Shown here: positions 6,735 through 13,496 of the stretch, piece by piece
Position numbering within the stretch: the first letter of the stretch is position 1
Layout of the letters: each line of letters starts with the position of its first letter
Translations under genes and position numbers: made by a program
Notes under the pieces: model-generated
The model's input: the letters and a program-made list of their open reading frames with translations, nothing else
Told to the model about the DNA's origin: nothing
The model's database searches: none
Assembly (NCBI GenBank): GCA_015069015.1
Contig: SVJK01000014.1
Location: 1-36,777 of the forward strand
Direction: 5' to 3'
DNA length: 36,777 nt
From: Oscillospiraceae bacterium
GTDB taxonomy: Bacteria > Bacillota > Clostridia > UMGS1810

Positions 6735-6771
6735 AGCTTAATCTATATAATTTTTAAAGGAGAGAAACATT

Positions 6772-7587
6772 ATGAAAAAATTATTATGTATGGCATTGGC
6801 TCTTGTTATGATTCTATCATTTGCAGGATGTGAAAAGGCGAAACCTGCAGGAGATTACGCTAAATCTGTAGATAATGCGTTAATCGTTGCAGAAGCAGGT
6901 TCTGCAGGTGAAGAACTTGCAACAGGAAATGAATACTTCAAAAATGCGAAATTCACAGCAGTAGATTCCATGGCAAAAGCTCTTATGGAAGTAAAAGCAG
7001 GAACAGCAGATGTTGCTATTGTTGACTATGTAACATCAATCGGATCCATCGGCGAAGGTACAGAATTTGAAGACCTTGTTGTAGTTGAAGGAAAAGATTT
7101 TAACCCCGAAGAATATGGTGTTGCTTTCAGAAAAGGCAGTGACATCACACCTGAAGTGAACAAAATCATTGCAGAACTTATGGCTGACGGAACAATGGAT
7201 AAAATTGGTAAAGAATACAAACTTGATGAGCTCTTGATTAAAGATCCTATGCATGATGATGTGGAAGTATCAGCAGAAAGTGACCTTGAATATGTAAAGG
7301 AAAAAGGCGAACTCATTATTGGTATCACATATTTTGCTCCTATGAACTATGAAAAAGATGGAGAGCTCATAGGATTCGAAACCGAATTTGCAAAAGCTGT
7401 TTGTGAAAAACTCGGAGTTGAAGCAAAATTTGTTGAAATCAATTGGGATACAAAAGAAATTGAACTCAACTCAAAAACAATCGACTGTATCTGGAACGGT
7501 ATGACAATTACCCCCGAGAGAAAAGAAAATATGAGCATAACAGTACCTTATATGAATAATAAACAGGTTATGGTAGCAAAAGGCTGA
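6772..7587 (+). CDS. ABC transporter substrate-binding lipoprotein with circularly permuted SBP_bac_3 domain
   Basis: This is the extracytoplasmic binding lipoprotein of a polar amino-acid ABC importer (271 residues). A signal peptide ends in the lipobox SFAGC (lipidated Cys20). The two halves of the SBP_bac_3 domain are in reverse of the family order. Residues about 36-155 match what is normally the second half: the AEAGSAGE motif (40-47), AGTADVAIVD with Asp85, EEYGVAFRKGSD (113-124) and the terminal helix DGTMDKIGKEY (139-149). A linker (about 156-179) leads into what is normally the start of the mature protein: LIIGITYFAPMNYE (181-194), GFETEFAKAVCEKLG, and IWNGMTITPERKENMS with Arg250. 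The chain ends at QVMVAKG, where a normal homologue would enter lobe 2. Nothing seems lost. Permease and ATPase genes follow directly. The order is read directly; folding and ligand (cystine or another polar amino acid) are inferred. Confidence 0.85.
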   Translation: MKKLLCMALALVMILSFAGCEKAKPAGDYAKSVDNALIVAEAGSAGEELATGNEYFKNAKFTAVDSMAKALMEVKAGTADVAIVDYVTSIGSIGEGTEFEDLVVVEGKDFNPEEYGVAFRKGSDITPEVNKIIAELMADGTMDKIGKEYKLDELLIKDPMHDDVEVSAESDLEYVKEKGELIIGITYFAPMNYEKDGELIGFETEFAKAVCEKLGVEAKFVEINWDTKEIELNSKTIDCIWNGMTITPERKENMSITVPYMNNKQVMVAKG

Positions 7588-7615: not shown

Positions 7616-8263
7616 ATGTCAACCATTGAAACTATTGTATCCTCTCTGTTTGAGGGGTTTGCATATAATACAAAATTATTTATTTTAACATTAATAATTG
7701 CATTGCCTCTCGGATTGCTTATCACACTTGGGACAATGACAAAGATTACACCAATCAGATGGTTTATGAAAACCTTTGTGTGGATAATCAGAGGAACACC
7801 TTTGATGTTGCAGTTAATAGTTGTGTTTTACGCACCGGGATTGTTTTTTAATACGCCTATGAGGGACAGATTTGTTGCTGCTGCGATTGCATTTGTAATA
7901 AACTATGCCGCATATTTTTCGGAAATATACAGAGGTGGAATAGAGAGCATTTCAATTGGCCAATATGAAGCAGGTCAGGTGCTTGGAATGACAAAGGTTC
8001 AGGTTTTCTTCAAGGTTATACTTTTTCAAGTGATAAAGAGAATCGTTCCACCAATGGGGAATGAAATAATCACACTTGTCAAAGATACCTCTCTTGCAAA
8101 TGTAATAGGTGTTGCTGAAATAATAATGAGTGCGGAGCGATTTACAAAACAAGGTTTGATAAGTCCTTTGTTTGCAACTGGACTATATTTTCTGATTTTT
8201 GTAGGTGCATTGACATTGCTGTTGAACTATGTTGAAAAGAGATTCAATTACTACAGGGGATGA
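7616..8263 (+). CDS. Polar amino-acid ABC transporter permease (HisM/GlnP family)
   Basis: The 215-residue inner-membrane permease has about five transmembrane segments and would work as a homodimer, as only one permease gene is present. The coupling-helix EAA loop is visible as [22 protein letters not shown] (about residues 120-141), and [14 protein letters not shown] is the typical family sequence after it. RGTPLMLQL (about 60-68) is another family signature. It lies 28 bases after the binding-protein gene, with AGGAAG about 10 bases before its ATG. Unlike the binding protein, its order and length look entirely normal. Confidence 0.93.
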
Positions 8264-8273
8264 GGTGCAATCT

Positions 8274-9062
8274 ATGAAAATACTTGAAGTACATGATATA
8301 CATAAACATTTTGGTAAGACAAGAGTTTTGGAAGGTGTGGGATTTTCAATGGAAGAAGGAGAAGTTCTTTCTATCCTCGGTTCATCGGGAAGCGGTAAAA
8401 CCACACTTCTAAGATGTATAAATTTCCTTGAAAAAGCAGATGAAGGAAAGATTCTTGTTGATGGAAATGTGGTTTTTGATGCGTCAGATAAGGCAAAAAT
8501 GACCACATTACAGATCAGAAAAGCCCAACTCAATTTCGGAATGGTTTTCCAGTCTTTTAACCTTTTTCCTCAATACAATGTTTTGGAAAACGTAACACTT
8601 GCCCCAAAACTTCTGGCAAAGGAAAGACCTGATTGGAAAACTAATAAAAAGCATATAACGGAGCAGATAATTGAAGATGCAAAAAAAATTCTTGAAAGGG
8701 TAGGGCTTTCAGATAAACTCGAAAGCTATCCGTGCCAACTTTCAGGAGGACAGCAACAGAGGGTTTCCATTGCAAGGGCACTTGCACTAAAACCAAAGAT
8801 TCTTTTCTTTGATGAACCAACGTCTGCTCTCGATCCTGAACTTACAGGTGAAATTCTTAAAGTTATAAAAAGTCTTGCAAAAGAACACATCACAATGGTA
8901 ATTGTAACTCATGAAATTGGTTTTGCTAAAAATGTGTCAGACCGCATAATTTTTATGGATAATGGTGTAATTGCCGAAGAAGGAACACCTGATGAAGTTA
9001 TAAATCATCCAAAGAATGAAAGAACAAAAGCCTTTCTTAATCTTATAGGTCAAAAAGAATAA
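8274..9062 (+). CDS. Polar amino-acid ABC transporter ATP-binding protein
   Basis: This is the ATPase subunit of the importer. Motifs occur in order: Walker [10 protein letters not shown] (about residue 40), Q-loop [13 protein letters not shown], signature LSGGQQQR, Walker [15 protein letters not shown] and the switch histidine in IVTHEI. I place the start at 8274: GAGGTG at 8262-8267 lies 6 bases upstream and [14 protein letters not shown] is the usual family start. An in-frame ATG at 8229 would overlap the permease coding region by 35 bases. The product is 262 residues. Only 10 bases separate it from the permease stop, consistent with one operon. Confidence 0.95.
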
Positions 9063-10390: not shown

Positions 10391-12793
10391 TCATATTTGG
10401 GAGTTTATATCCTCGGCATATCTTACCGCTTCCATTGCATCTTTGCAATACATATCTGCTCCCATACGGTCAGCATATTCTTTTGTTAAAACTGCACCGC
10501 CAACCATGATTTTAACGCCCGGGAGAAGCTTTTTTGCAAGTTTAACAGTTTCTTCCATTGCCGGAACTGTTGTTGTCATAAGTGCACTGAGTCCTATTAT
10601 TAGAGCCTTTTTCTTTTTTGCTTCTTCAATAATATCCATGGGCTCAACATCTTTTCCAAGGTCAGAAACATCAAAGCCGTAGTTTTCCAAAAGTGCTTTG
10701 ACAATGTTTTTTCCAATATCATGAATATCGCCTTTGACAGTTGCAATGACAACAGGGCACTTTTTTGTTTGTGTGTTCCCAAGTTCTGACATTTTTTCTT
10801 TTATAGCATCAAATGCTGATTTTGCGCTTTCCGCACTTATGAGAAGTTGAGGAAGAAAAACAGTTTTTTCCTCAAATCCTTTCCCGACGGCATCAAGGGC
10901 GGGGACGATTTGTGTGTTAATAACATCAAGGGGACTCATTGTTTTTAAAACTTCCTTTGAAAGATTGTATGCACTTTCTTTCAAACCTTTTATGATGGCA
11001 CCTTTTAGCCCTTCTTCATTTCCTGTCTGAATGCTGTTGGCATTTTTATCAAGTGATGAAGAAACGGTAATTCTTTTTGAAAAATCAATATATTCGCTAT
11101 AGTTTTCATCAAAACCGGAAAGGGCACAGTATGACTTGTAAACTTTCATCATTTCTGCTGAGTGAGGATTTATGATAGCGCCTGAAAGTCCTTTTGTAAG
11201 AGCCATAGCAAAAAATGTCGAATTAATAATCTCTCGTGCAGGAAGTCCAAAGGAGATATTTGATACTCCAAGACTTGTATTGATACCCATTTTTGTTATT
11301 CTTTCAAGGGAATCCAATGTAACCTTTGCAGCATTATGGTCTGTGCTTATTGTCATTGCAAGGGGATCAACAATAATATCTTTGCTTTCTATACCATATT
11401 CTTTGGCGGTTTCTACAATCTTTCGGGCAATTTCGCATCTGCCTTCCGGATTGTCAGGGATTCCTGATTCATCAAGTGTAAGAGCTACAACAAGACCTCC
11501 ATATTTTTTTATCAGAGGGAAAATGGCCTCCATGCATTCTTTTTTTCCGTTCACGGAATTGACCATTGGTTTTCCGTTGTAAAGACGCATTGCTCTTTCC
11601 ATTGCCACGGCGTCTGATGTGTCAATCTGCAAAGGAAGATCTGTTACGGACTGGAGAGAAAAAACCACCTTTGAAAGCATATCCGCTTCATCAATTTCAG
11701 GAAGTCCGACGTTAACATCAAGAACATGAGCGCCTTCCTCCTCTTGACCGAGACCTACTTTGAGAATATAATCTATATCATTGTTTCTGAGGGCTTCTTT
11801 AAACACTTTCTTTCCTGTCGGATTGATTCTTTCTCCGATAATCACACATTGTTTGCCAAAATTCACTGTATGCGTATATGACGAAATCACAGACAAATTC
11901 TTTTTTGTTACAGGCTTTGGAACAAAACCTGTAAGTCTTTTTGTAATCTCTTTTATGTATTCAGGGGTTGTACCGCAACATCCACCCACAACTGATGCCC
12001 CTGAATTGGCGATTCTTTCCATATATTCGCCAAATTGGGTTTTGTCTATGTCATAACTTGTTTTTCCGTCTTTGAATACAGGGAGTCCTGCATTTGGGTT
12101 TACGATAATTGGTGTTGAAGAAACCTTAATCAGTTTTTCAAGGATTGGTATCATATCCTGAGGACCGAAAGAACAATTCATTCCGATTGCATCAACTTTC
12201 AATCCCTCAAGTGTTGCACAAACTGCCTCAGGTGTTGCACCGGTCATAAGTTTTCCATTTTTATCATATGCATTTGTAACAAAGACCGGAAGAGTAGAAT
12301 TTTCTTTTGCTGCAAGAACTGCCGCCTTTGTCTCATAAAGGTCGTTCATTGTCTCAATCAGAATTAAATCTGCACCATATTTTTGACCGAGAACCACTGT
12401 TTTTGCAAAAACCGATACTGCATCTTCAAAATCAAAAGTTCCAAGAGGTTTTAATAGTTTTCCAAGAGGGCCAATGTCTAATGCAACAAAATGCAGTTTA
12501 TCCTGATTGCACATTTCTATTGCTTTTTTTGCATTAAAAACAGCGGATTTTATGATTTCTTCAAGTTCATCTTCGGAATACTTTAAAACATTCGCACCAA
12601 ATGTATTTGCTGTCAGAATATTTGTTCCGCTCATCAGATAATCAAGATGAATTTGTTGTATAACATCCGGCCTTTTCACGTTCCATCTTTCCGGAAGTAC
12701 AGAAGTATCAAGACCGCTTTTTTGGATAAGAGTCCCCATGCCTCCGTCAAAAAAGAGCATTTCTTTTCCTAAAACATCAAGTATATTAATCAT
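10391..12793 (-). CDS. metH: Cobalamin-dependent methionine synthase core (lacks the activation domain)
   Basis: The enzyme transfers a methyl group from 5-methyltetrahydrofolate through cobalamin to homocysteine, forming methionine. Domains in order: homocysteine-binding barrel (about residues 1-290; zinc cysteines in MNCSFGP and GGCCGTTP), folate-binding barrel (about 300-580; VIIGERINPTGKK, DVNVGLP), a cobalamin cap (about 590-670), and the Rossmann cobalamin domain with DIHDIGKN, whose His691 would be the lower cobalt ligand. The fourth, AdoMet-binding reactivation domain is absent and is encoded by the preceding gene. I place the start at 12793, where GAGGTGG lies about 6 bases upstream; this gives 800 residues. 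The coding region overlaps the upstream gene by 8 bases, so translation is probably coupled. Confidence 0.94.
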   Translation of the reverse strand: MINILDVLGKEMLFFDGGMGTLIQKSGLDTSVLPERWNVKRPDVIQQIHLDYLMSGTNILTANTFGANVLKYSEDELEEIIKSAVFNAKKAIEMCNQDKLHFVALDIGPLGKLLKPLGTFDFEDAVSVFAKTVVLGQKYGADLILIETMNDLYETKAAVLAAKENSTLPVFVTNAYDKNGKLMTGATPEAVCATLEGLKVDAIGMNCSFGPQDMIPILEKLIKVSSTPIIVNPNAGLPVFKDGKTSYDIDKTQFGEYMERIANSGASVVGGCCGTTPEYIKEITKRLTGFVPKPVTKKNLSVISSYTHTVNFGKQCVIIGERINPTGKKVFKEALRNNDIDYILKVGLGQEEEGAHVLDVNVGLPEIDEADMLSKVVFSLQSVTDLPLQIDTSDAVAMERAMRLYNGKPMVNSVNGKKECMEAIFPLIKKYGGLVVALTLDESGIPDNPEGRCEIARKIVETAKEYGIESKDIIVDPLAMTISTDHNAAKVTLDSLERITKMGINTSLGVSNISFGLPAREIINSTFFAMALTKGLSGAIINPHSAEMMKVYKSYCALSGFDENYSEYIDFSKRITVSSSLDKNANSIQTGNEEGLKGAIIKGLKESAYNLSKEVLKTMSPLDVINTQIVPALDAVGKGFEEKTVFLPQLLISAESAKSAFDAIKEKMSELGNTQTKKCPVVIATVKGDIHDIGKNIVKALLENYGFDVSDLGKDVEPMDIIEEAKKKKALIIGLSALMTTTVPAMEETVKLAKKLLPGVKIMVGGAVLTKEYADRMGADMYCKDAMEAVRYAEDINSQI

Positions 12794-13496
12794 TGGAAGC
12801 CACCTCTTTATTTTTTCTGAAACTGCAGTCAGTTTTTTCACAGTTTTCGCATTTTTCATTTTTGTTACATCTTTTTGATTTTGAAATTCCTATTACACCT
12901 GTTATGGATTTCGACGGTGTCAGCATCAATGAGTCTGTCAGGGACACACCGCACCTTTTCGTAGAATCTGTAGCCTTTATGAACATTGGTTGATTTTCCA
13001 ACTTGAAATCTCCATAACCGGGGCTGAACCTTGGCTTTAAATATTCGTTTGATTTTAAAAATTCTCTTTGGAGTTCTCCTGTGAAAATATCAGCATATTT
13101 CTCGATAACATCAGTGAAGATTGCGGAAATAATAAGAGATTCAAGAGGGGATGACGCCTTTCCTGATTGAATTGCCCTGTCAGCATCTGCACCGAGAGTG
13201 AGCGTAAACACGATAGCCTTGTCACAACCCAAAAGATTTTTTGAGAGATTTTCAGATTCGAAAATACTTTCGCCAATTTTAATTTTACCTTTATCAAAAT
13301 TTAAATTCTGTATAACAAAAGCACCCTTAGGCGAAGCCTTTGAAAGGGTGTTTTTAATGTTTGTTTCAATAAGTGTGATAATTTCCGGTGATGCTTCACC
13401 TTTTTGTCCCATATACCTCATAATCTCTTTTTTATCAGGTATAATACTCTCAATGGGCAAAAAATGAGAATATACAGTATTCAAATTCAAAGACAT
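12786..13496 (-). CDS. Methionine synthase activation subunit (stand-alone reactivation domain)
   Basis: This 236-residue protein corresponds to the reactivation domain of full-length MetH, which reductively methylates inactive cob(II)alamin using AdoMet and an electron donor. The diagnostic AdoMet-site segment appears as RFSPGYGDF (about residue 157), followed by LTPSKSITGVIG (about 193). The C-terminus carries a cysteine cluster (CNKNEKCENC then C), seen in clostridial stand-alone versions and possibly binding metal. It lies between a PurF-like gene (23 bases upstream) and the metH core it would serve (8-base overlap). The split arrangement is common in Clostridia. Confidence 0.9.
   Translation of the reverse strand: MSLNLNTVYSHFLPIESIIPDKKEIMRYMGQKGEASPEIITLIETNIKNTLSKASPKGAFVIQNLNFDKGKIKIGESIFESENLSKNLLGCDKAIVFTLTLGADADRAIQSGKASSPLESLIISAIFTDVIEKYADIFTGELQREFLKSNEYLKPRFSPGYGDFKLENQPMFIKATDSTKRCGVSLTDSLMLTPSKSITGVIGISKSKRCNKNEKCENCEKTDCSFRKNKEVASND

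Follow-up and report, generated by a model that had tools for sequence, protein, structure and literature searches.

The window, i.e., the whole stretch of 36,777 nucleotides analysed here, comes from a gut bacterium and carries on its forward strand a binding-protein (SBP) gene followed by the genes for a permease and an ABC ATPase. The SBP gene lies at 6772..7587, its coordinates and ORF translation agreeing with the text of the original prediction, and a ribosome-binding-site-like AAGGAGAG is found in the sequence at 6758..6765, a few bases 5' of the ATG. Its product is a 271-aa SBP_bac_3 lipoprotein, and the translation, profile matches and AlphaFold2 model all point to a circularly permuted chain with a break at a site that we call CP1. 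The single permease gene (7616..8263) is identified by Pfam (BPD_transp_1), NCBIfam (HEQRo_perm_3TM) and a structure match, with 4yms as its nearest solved permease. The GlnQ/TcyN-like ATPase occupies 8274..9062, where homology begins at 8274 and the ORF opens at 8229. The Pfam and NCBIfam matches thus bear out the expectation of a normal permease and ATPase downstream. Elsewhere in the window (10391-13496, minus strand), a methionine synthase is divided between two ORFs: one encodes the catalytic and B12-binding part, and the other, immediately upstream, encodes the activation domain as a protein of its own.

Read from its N-terminus, the permuted protein begins with a lipoprotein signal peptide (6772..6831) that ends in the lipobox FAGC with Cys20, as seen in the sequence and in a pattern check on relatives. 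Lobe 2 minus its first strand follows (residues 27-111, 6850..7104; alignments, doubled profile and model) and includes the ligand-site Asp85 (7024-7026). The second interlobe (hinge) strand is assigned to residues 112-120 (7105..7131), based on a predicted strand there and homology to glutamine-binding protein. It leads into the C-terminal part of lobe 1 (residues 121-155, 7132..7236; alignments, doubled profile and model), which is the family's old C-terminus. A linker of about 15 residues (156-170, 7237..7281) then bridges the former C- and N-termini: the alignment places it here, no strand or helix is predicted for it, and it forms a block of lower pLDDT (83). A linker at about 156-179 had been proposed; it exists but spans approximately 156-170, since residues 171-178 (DLEYVKEK) are the former N-terminal helix. 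The N-terminal part of lobe 1 (residues 171-260, 7282..7551; Pfam and PDB matches, doubled profile) corresponds to the old mature N-terminus and contains the ligand-site Arg250 (7519-7521). The chain ends with residues 261-271 (7552..7584), in which the first interlobe (hinge) strand continues directly as the first strand of lobe 2; they form the new C-terminus, as indicated by a predicted strand at 261-270 and by mapping to glutamine-binding protein 85-96. Both Asp85 and Arg250 sit at conserved ligand-site columns of the family; in relatives, these residues hold the ligand's amino and carboxyl groups.

The usual order of this family is lobe 1 N-part, lobe 2, lobe 1 C-part, and the window protein departs from it: residues ~27-155 correspond to the C-terminal part of SBP_bac_3 and residues ~171-270 to the N-terminal part, with the domain complete. 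Searching the PDB with phmmer and searching NCBIfam both gave two partial matches in reversed model order (e.g., residues 43-147 align with AncQR 125-228, and residues 178-270 with AncQR 9-103). Pfam matched a single stretch, residues 182-270 against PF00497 positions 2-92 of 132 (E 7e-31), and its score of 107 bits is well above the membership cut-off of 26.4. Pfam therefore detects only half of such permuted proteins, which is a warning for annotation. We also built a doubled profile, in which the profile of 16 normal-order relatives is written twice (2 x 236 positions). Against it the window protein aligns in one piece, residues 23-270 to positions 101-336, at 351 bits, which is one full lap from core position 101 to 100 with no part lost and both domain halves present. 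Segments are thus swapped, the old ends are joined and new ends lie elsewhere, as in a natural circular permutation. As far as sequence comparison goes, the window protein is homologous to SBP_bac_3 yet non-collinear, i.e., a permuted variant, and the claims of natural circular permutation and of a complete domain are both upheld.

The original prediction treated this gene as a single oddity, but it belongs to one of three recurrent types that together number at least 51 permuted SBPs, the window gene included. Among the relatives, further proteins begin with the C-part but differ in the lengths that surround it. We ran a junction profile, covering the C-part of lobe 1, the linker and the N-part of lobe 1, which all three types have in common, on 391 genomes of the class. 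It told the two orders apart cleanly, returning 28 permuted places at 181 bits or more with near-whole cover, whereas normal proteins scored at most 180 bits with partial cover. A shorter junction profile added 13 more distant places, making 41 in 37 of the 391 genomes and 18 family codes, and a sample of the phylum added permuted proteins in families f97, f123 and f136. Mapped on the doubled profile, the breaks fall at core positions ~100 (CP1), ~134 (CP2) and ~174 (CP3), all within lobe 2. CP1 is found in the window, G100, G138, G223, G366, G230 and others, and CP2 (~132-140) in G310, G117, G060, G090 and G279. CP3 is found in G001, G004, G006, G007, G009, G010, G012, G014, G244, G184, G043, G075, G191, G160, G342, G376, G222 and others. 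Every mapped break is in lobe 2 (94-192) and none is in lobe 1, within a short-profile range that should reveal breaks from core position ~44 to 187 and would miss those outside it. The sequences are therefore suggestive of a bias of breaks to lobe 2.

Some loci needed individual judgement. L151 looked like CP2 because its contig ends inside the gene, mimicking that type, and it is in fact CP3; L050 and L053 are normal-order proteins. At L192:2462-3334, in a genome that looks like that of an isolate (G331, 3 contigs, 5.3 Mb), a CP1-like protein has its break ~13 residues deeper in lobe 2 (core ~113-118). In the window's own genus, g1 (G000, G001, G004, G005), the binding protein of one operon type takes three topologies: CP1 (window), CP3 (G001, G004) and normal (G005).

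For structure prediction of the window protein, AlphaFold2 was given an alignment of permuted relatives together with the matching halves of normal ones. The result is a confident two-lobed fold (pLDDT 93.3, pTM 0.86). A CP3 protein was also modelled (pLDDT 89.4, pTM 0.79), and its residues 97-270 superpose on AncCDT-1 14-196 (2.4 A, Z 16.7), as its sequence predicts. Foldseek matched the window model to its true relatives 3hv1, 4ohn and TmArgBP over only 82-89 residues (1.2-1.6 A), and such short matches are as expected when a sequential aligner meets what the model depicts as a permuted chain. Full-length matches were confined to distant proteins (OpuAC, HisG and others; 6-15% identity, Z 9-11, TM ~0.4-0.5). 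We read these as lobe-swapped alignments that arise via the pseudo-symmetry of the lobes. We likewise set aside PfVFT1 (5jkq), the top VIA hit (Z 11.5), as a precedent: model residues 121-263 match its chain 30-195 at 14% identity, and lobe pseudo-symmetry explains this equally well.

The model also bears on where the chain opens. The original prediction placed the break at the first interlobe crossover, leaving one hinge strand open and possibly changing the closing motion, and the break is indeed only ~10 residues beyond the first hinge strand. By alignment to the E. coli glutamine-binding protein, residue 260 corresponds to position 85 and residue 30 to position 104. The hinge strands of that protein are 85-89 and 181-185. 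The strand predicted at 261-270 is continuous and covers glutamine-binding protein positions 86-95, and a second continuous strand is predicted at 112-120, so the modelled fold has two interlobe strands and its chain crosses twice. Because the hinge strands map inside these continuous strands, both crossings look intact in the model, and the chain opens one strand beyond the hinge, in the loop after the first lobe-2 strand. The CP2 and CP3 breaks are well inside lobe 2, which also argues against a broken hinge, and we now consider that earlier placement very improbable. A different concern is that two SBP fragments were joined by metagenome misassembly or binning, given that most of the genomes are drafts, including that of the window with its 101 contigs and 86% completeness. 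However, a GTDB genome search found the same order across residues 1-270 in L026 (72% identity), L027 (70%), G100 (74%) and G138 (70%), and L026 and L027 are MAGs from different animals (water-buffalo colon and roe-deer cecum, respectively). In all four, the permuted gene precedes the same permease and ATPase. The same order also occurs in 90-100% complete genomes, interior to contigs, with one permuted case in a 919 kb contig of the 3-contig genome G331. Finding homologues of the same order in independent genomes excludes chance or misassembly, and we give an artefact practically no weight.

A real permutation could still have left a degenerate gene, a duplication product in decay that has lost its binding function. 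In favour of this, one permuted CP3 protein (G010:C12, L074) has an N-terminal transmembrane anchor in place of a lipobox, and the 4 kb read around its gene show no permease. Selection argues against decay as it does against misassembly: dN/dS between permuted pairs is 0.03-0.17, so the permuted genes are under strong purifying selection. Nearly all permuted proteins carry a lipobox or other N-terminal anchor, and most permuted genes whose flanks were read adjoin a permease and ATPase. The ligand-site Asp is conserved in nearly all rows and the Arg likewise, with exceptions mainly in one subclade. In the window, the operon is intact, the predicted fold is confident and complete, and the genome has no other SBP of the same subfamily. 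Normal-order relatives fill the same operon position elsewhere (L028, L029, G005, G183, G031). A degenerate gene is accordingly a poor fit, and the idea that the system is probably working gains from the retained ligand-site residues, intact operon, purifying selection and predicted fold. Two of these exceptions deserve mention in their own right. The L074 protein (L074:102-1106) has a hydrophilic N-terminal tail in addition to its transmembrane anchor, features that would perhaps suit a sensor rather than part of a transporter. In the subclade noted above, Val replaces the carboxylate-binding Arg in both permuted (L079, L081, L085, L086, L078, L122, L123) and normal-order (L087, L099, L124) proteins, and this substitution suggests a different kind of ligand.

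How often permutation occurred can be assessed from trees. We rotated sequences to normal order and built a tree of 109 proteins, 51 of them permuted. This order-corrected SBP tree requires 16 changes among four states, or 11 if changes on long-branch rows are not counted. In AU tests of the two commoner types on the set without long-branch rows, forcing CP3 into a single clade costs 281 log-likelihood units (p 1e-9) and forcing CP1 into one costs 345 (p 2e-6). The tree of the permease, a gene which is not permuted, concurs, with 11 changes and single clades rejected. The changes on the SBP tree, the AU rejection of single clades and the agreement of the permease tree together indicate repeated origins of permutation. 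Their precise number is less certain, as it depends on sampling and trees and may include horizontal transfers or reversions along with new origins. One could instead suppose one or a few ancient permutations that were spread by horizontal transfer and sometimes reverted. Transfers do occur, and the window operon itself lends this some credence as a mosaic. Its ATPase shares 84% identity with the one in the same-genus G001, whose SBP is CP3, but its SBP and permease are nearest to those of L026 and G100, and the ATPases of those two match the window's at only 54-56% identity. Furthermore, SBPs that are close relatives of one another carry CP1 under several family codes (window, G100, G138). 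However, three distinct break sites are incompatible with one shared event, single clades are rejected within CP1 and within CP3 on both SBP and permease, normal-order proteins interleave with strong support, and reversion would require a second permutation. We therefore think a few ancient events unlikely, though clearly more plausible than artefact or decay, and favour repeated permutation. The mosaic pattern extends beyond this comparison (window 7616-9062; L085, L086, L087, L026, L075): the window's ATPase is 79-84% identical to those of its genus, and its SBP and permease are nearest to those of other families (70-75%). From these identities, it seems that the SBP-permease pair has been exchanged.

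The closest precedent for natural permutation of an SBP comes from Treponema pallidum, whose glucose-binding lipoprotein TpMglB-2 (Tp0684) is a type I protein for which a 'Type Ic / Cluster Bc' has been proposed (PMC4990184). Glucose binding and conformational change were shown for it, it has relatives in Gram-positive gut bacteria, and its authors proposed tethering as a possible cause of the permutation (PMC4990184). Like the window protein, it is a permuted lipoprotein beside normal ABC partners with both new ends in one lobe. It differs in its type I (cluster B) sugar fold, N-lobe strand order (5-4-6-1-2-3), fourth hinge crossing and one break site, and its authors describe one sub-class. 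The family of the window protein, in contrast, is a type II (cluster F) polar amino-acid family in which permutation has many origins and uses three break sites, each in lobe 2, and retains two crossings, and the window protein falls outside 'Type Ic / Cluster Bc', matching instead the amino-acid family PF00497. In the open-access literature, we found no report of natural permutation in the type II amino-acid SBP family, only TpMglB-2 and engineered sensors. Within that literature, the recurrent permutation of this family is therefore new and the suggestion that it was possibly undescribed stands.

Other proteins share only some of these features. The normal-order SBP_bac_3 lipoproteins L028, L029, G005, G183 and G031 have ~35-76% identity to the halves, the same permease-ATPase neighbours, the Asp and mostly the Arg, but they have the usual lobe order and a lipid anchor on lobe 1. 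The solved proteins 3hv1 (S. thermophilus), 4ohn (S. pneumoniae, with His bound), TmArgBP and AncQR have homologous halves but collinear order, and the first three of these show 37-43% identity over 82-89 residues at 1.3-1.6 A. Among the matches listed, no solved chain runs across the permuted junction except the tandem-domain GlnPQ (6h30). Having two SBP domains per chain (SBD1-SBD2), GlnPQ has a C-part adjoining an N-part as in the permuted proteins, but both its domains are complete and in normal order, without trimming. Outside SBPs, a search from structures found four natural circular permutations of PDZ domains (PMC12667903), which likewise make one natural fold with several break sites; the fold is another one, and no SBP came up in a search of the paper's text.

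Taken together, we interpret the window protein as the functional binding protein of an ABC importer for polar amino acids, tethered to the membrane and carrying a Venus-flytrap domain that underwent circular permutation during evolution, a reading to which we assign a probability of about 0.88. The one structural consequence, constant among the permutations, would be a lipid anchor on lobe 2 rather than on lobe 1. A polar amino acid would bind in the cleft, the lobes would close as usual on hinges that are intact in the model, and the closed protein would dock on a dimer of the single neighbouring permease. NCBIfam equivalog models did not name the ligand: every score was under its cut-off, with cystine-type models best for SBP and permease. 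The operon thus does not qualify as a cystine importer of TcyJLN type by these models (SBP 98 bits vs. a cut-off of 312, permease 127 vs. 300, ATPase 287 vs. 406).

The permuted order may have been reached by in-frame tandem duplication of the binding domain, after which the first copy would lose its front and the second its back. Duplication had been named as the simplest route, and it remains the likely one given an illustrative intermediate in G746 (L150:2591-4138), a 516-aa lipoprotein with two complete SBP_bac_3 domains that are 81% identical over 226 residues and separated by a linker of a few residues. It illustrates the route only, as no permuted copy was found in the G746 genome. As for why permutation recurs, we consider tethering because all the mapped breaks shift the tether onto lobe 2 and TpMglB-2 is also a tethered lipoprotein. 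That anchoring by lobe 2 brings a benefit is a hypothesis, and neutral drift via easy duplication is an alternative cause of the recurrence. We hold only tentatively, at somewhat below an even chance, the broader proposal that permutation is recurrent and probably adaptive, having used three favoured lobe-2 loops ten or more separate times and on each occasion transferred the anchor to lobe 2 from lobe 1 without breaking either hinge.

Most known natural circular permutations are isolated cases, but here one domain has been broken at three sites, with ten or more changes inferred among relatives of normal order, all in the same operon setting. This provides matched pairs for testing the effects of permutation on folding, ligand closing and docking, and it makes possible a direct test of the idea that tethering drives permutation (PMC4990184). 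If the adaptive proposal is true, nature has with these lipoproteins run a replicated experiment on how a flytrap receptor responds to chain order and to the position of its tether. The permuted proteins are also ready-made scaffolds for biosensor design. The survey also turned up SBP_bac_3 domains in other unusual contexts: at the C-terminus of a 753 aa multi-pass membrane protein that by eye looks sodium:alanine-symporter-like (L157:550-2808, G418), and in a 515 aa SBP-permease fusion (L159:1210-2754, G147).
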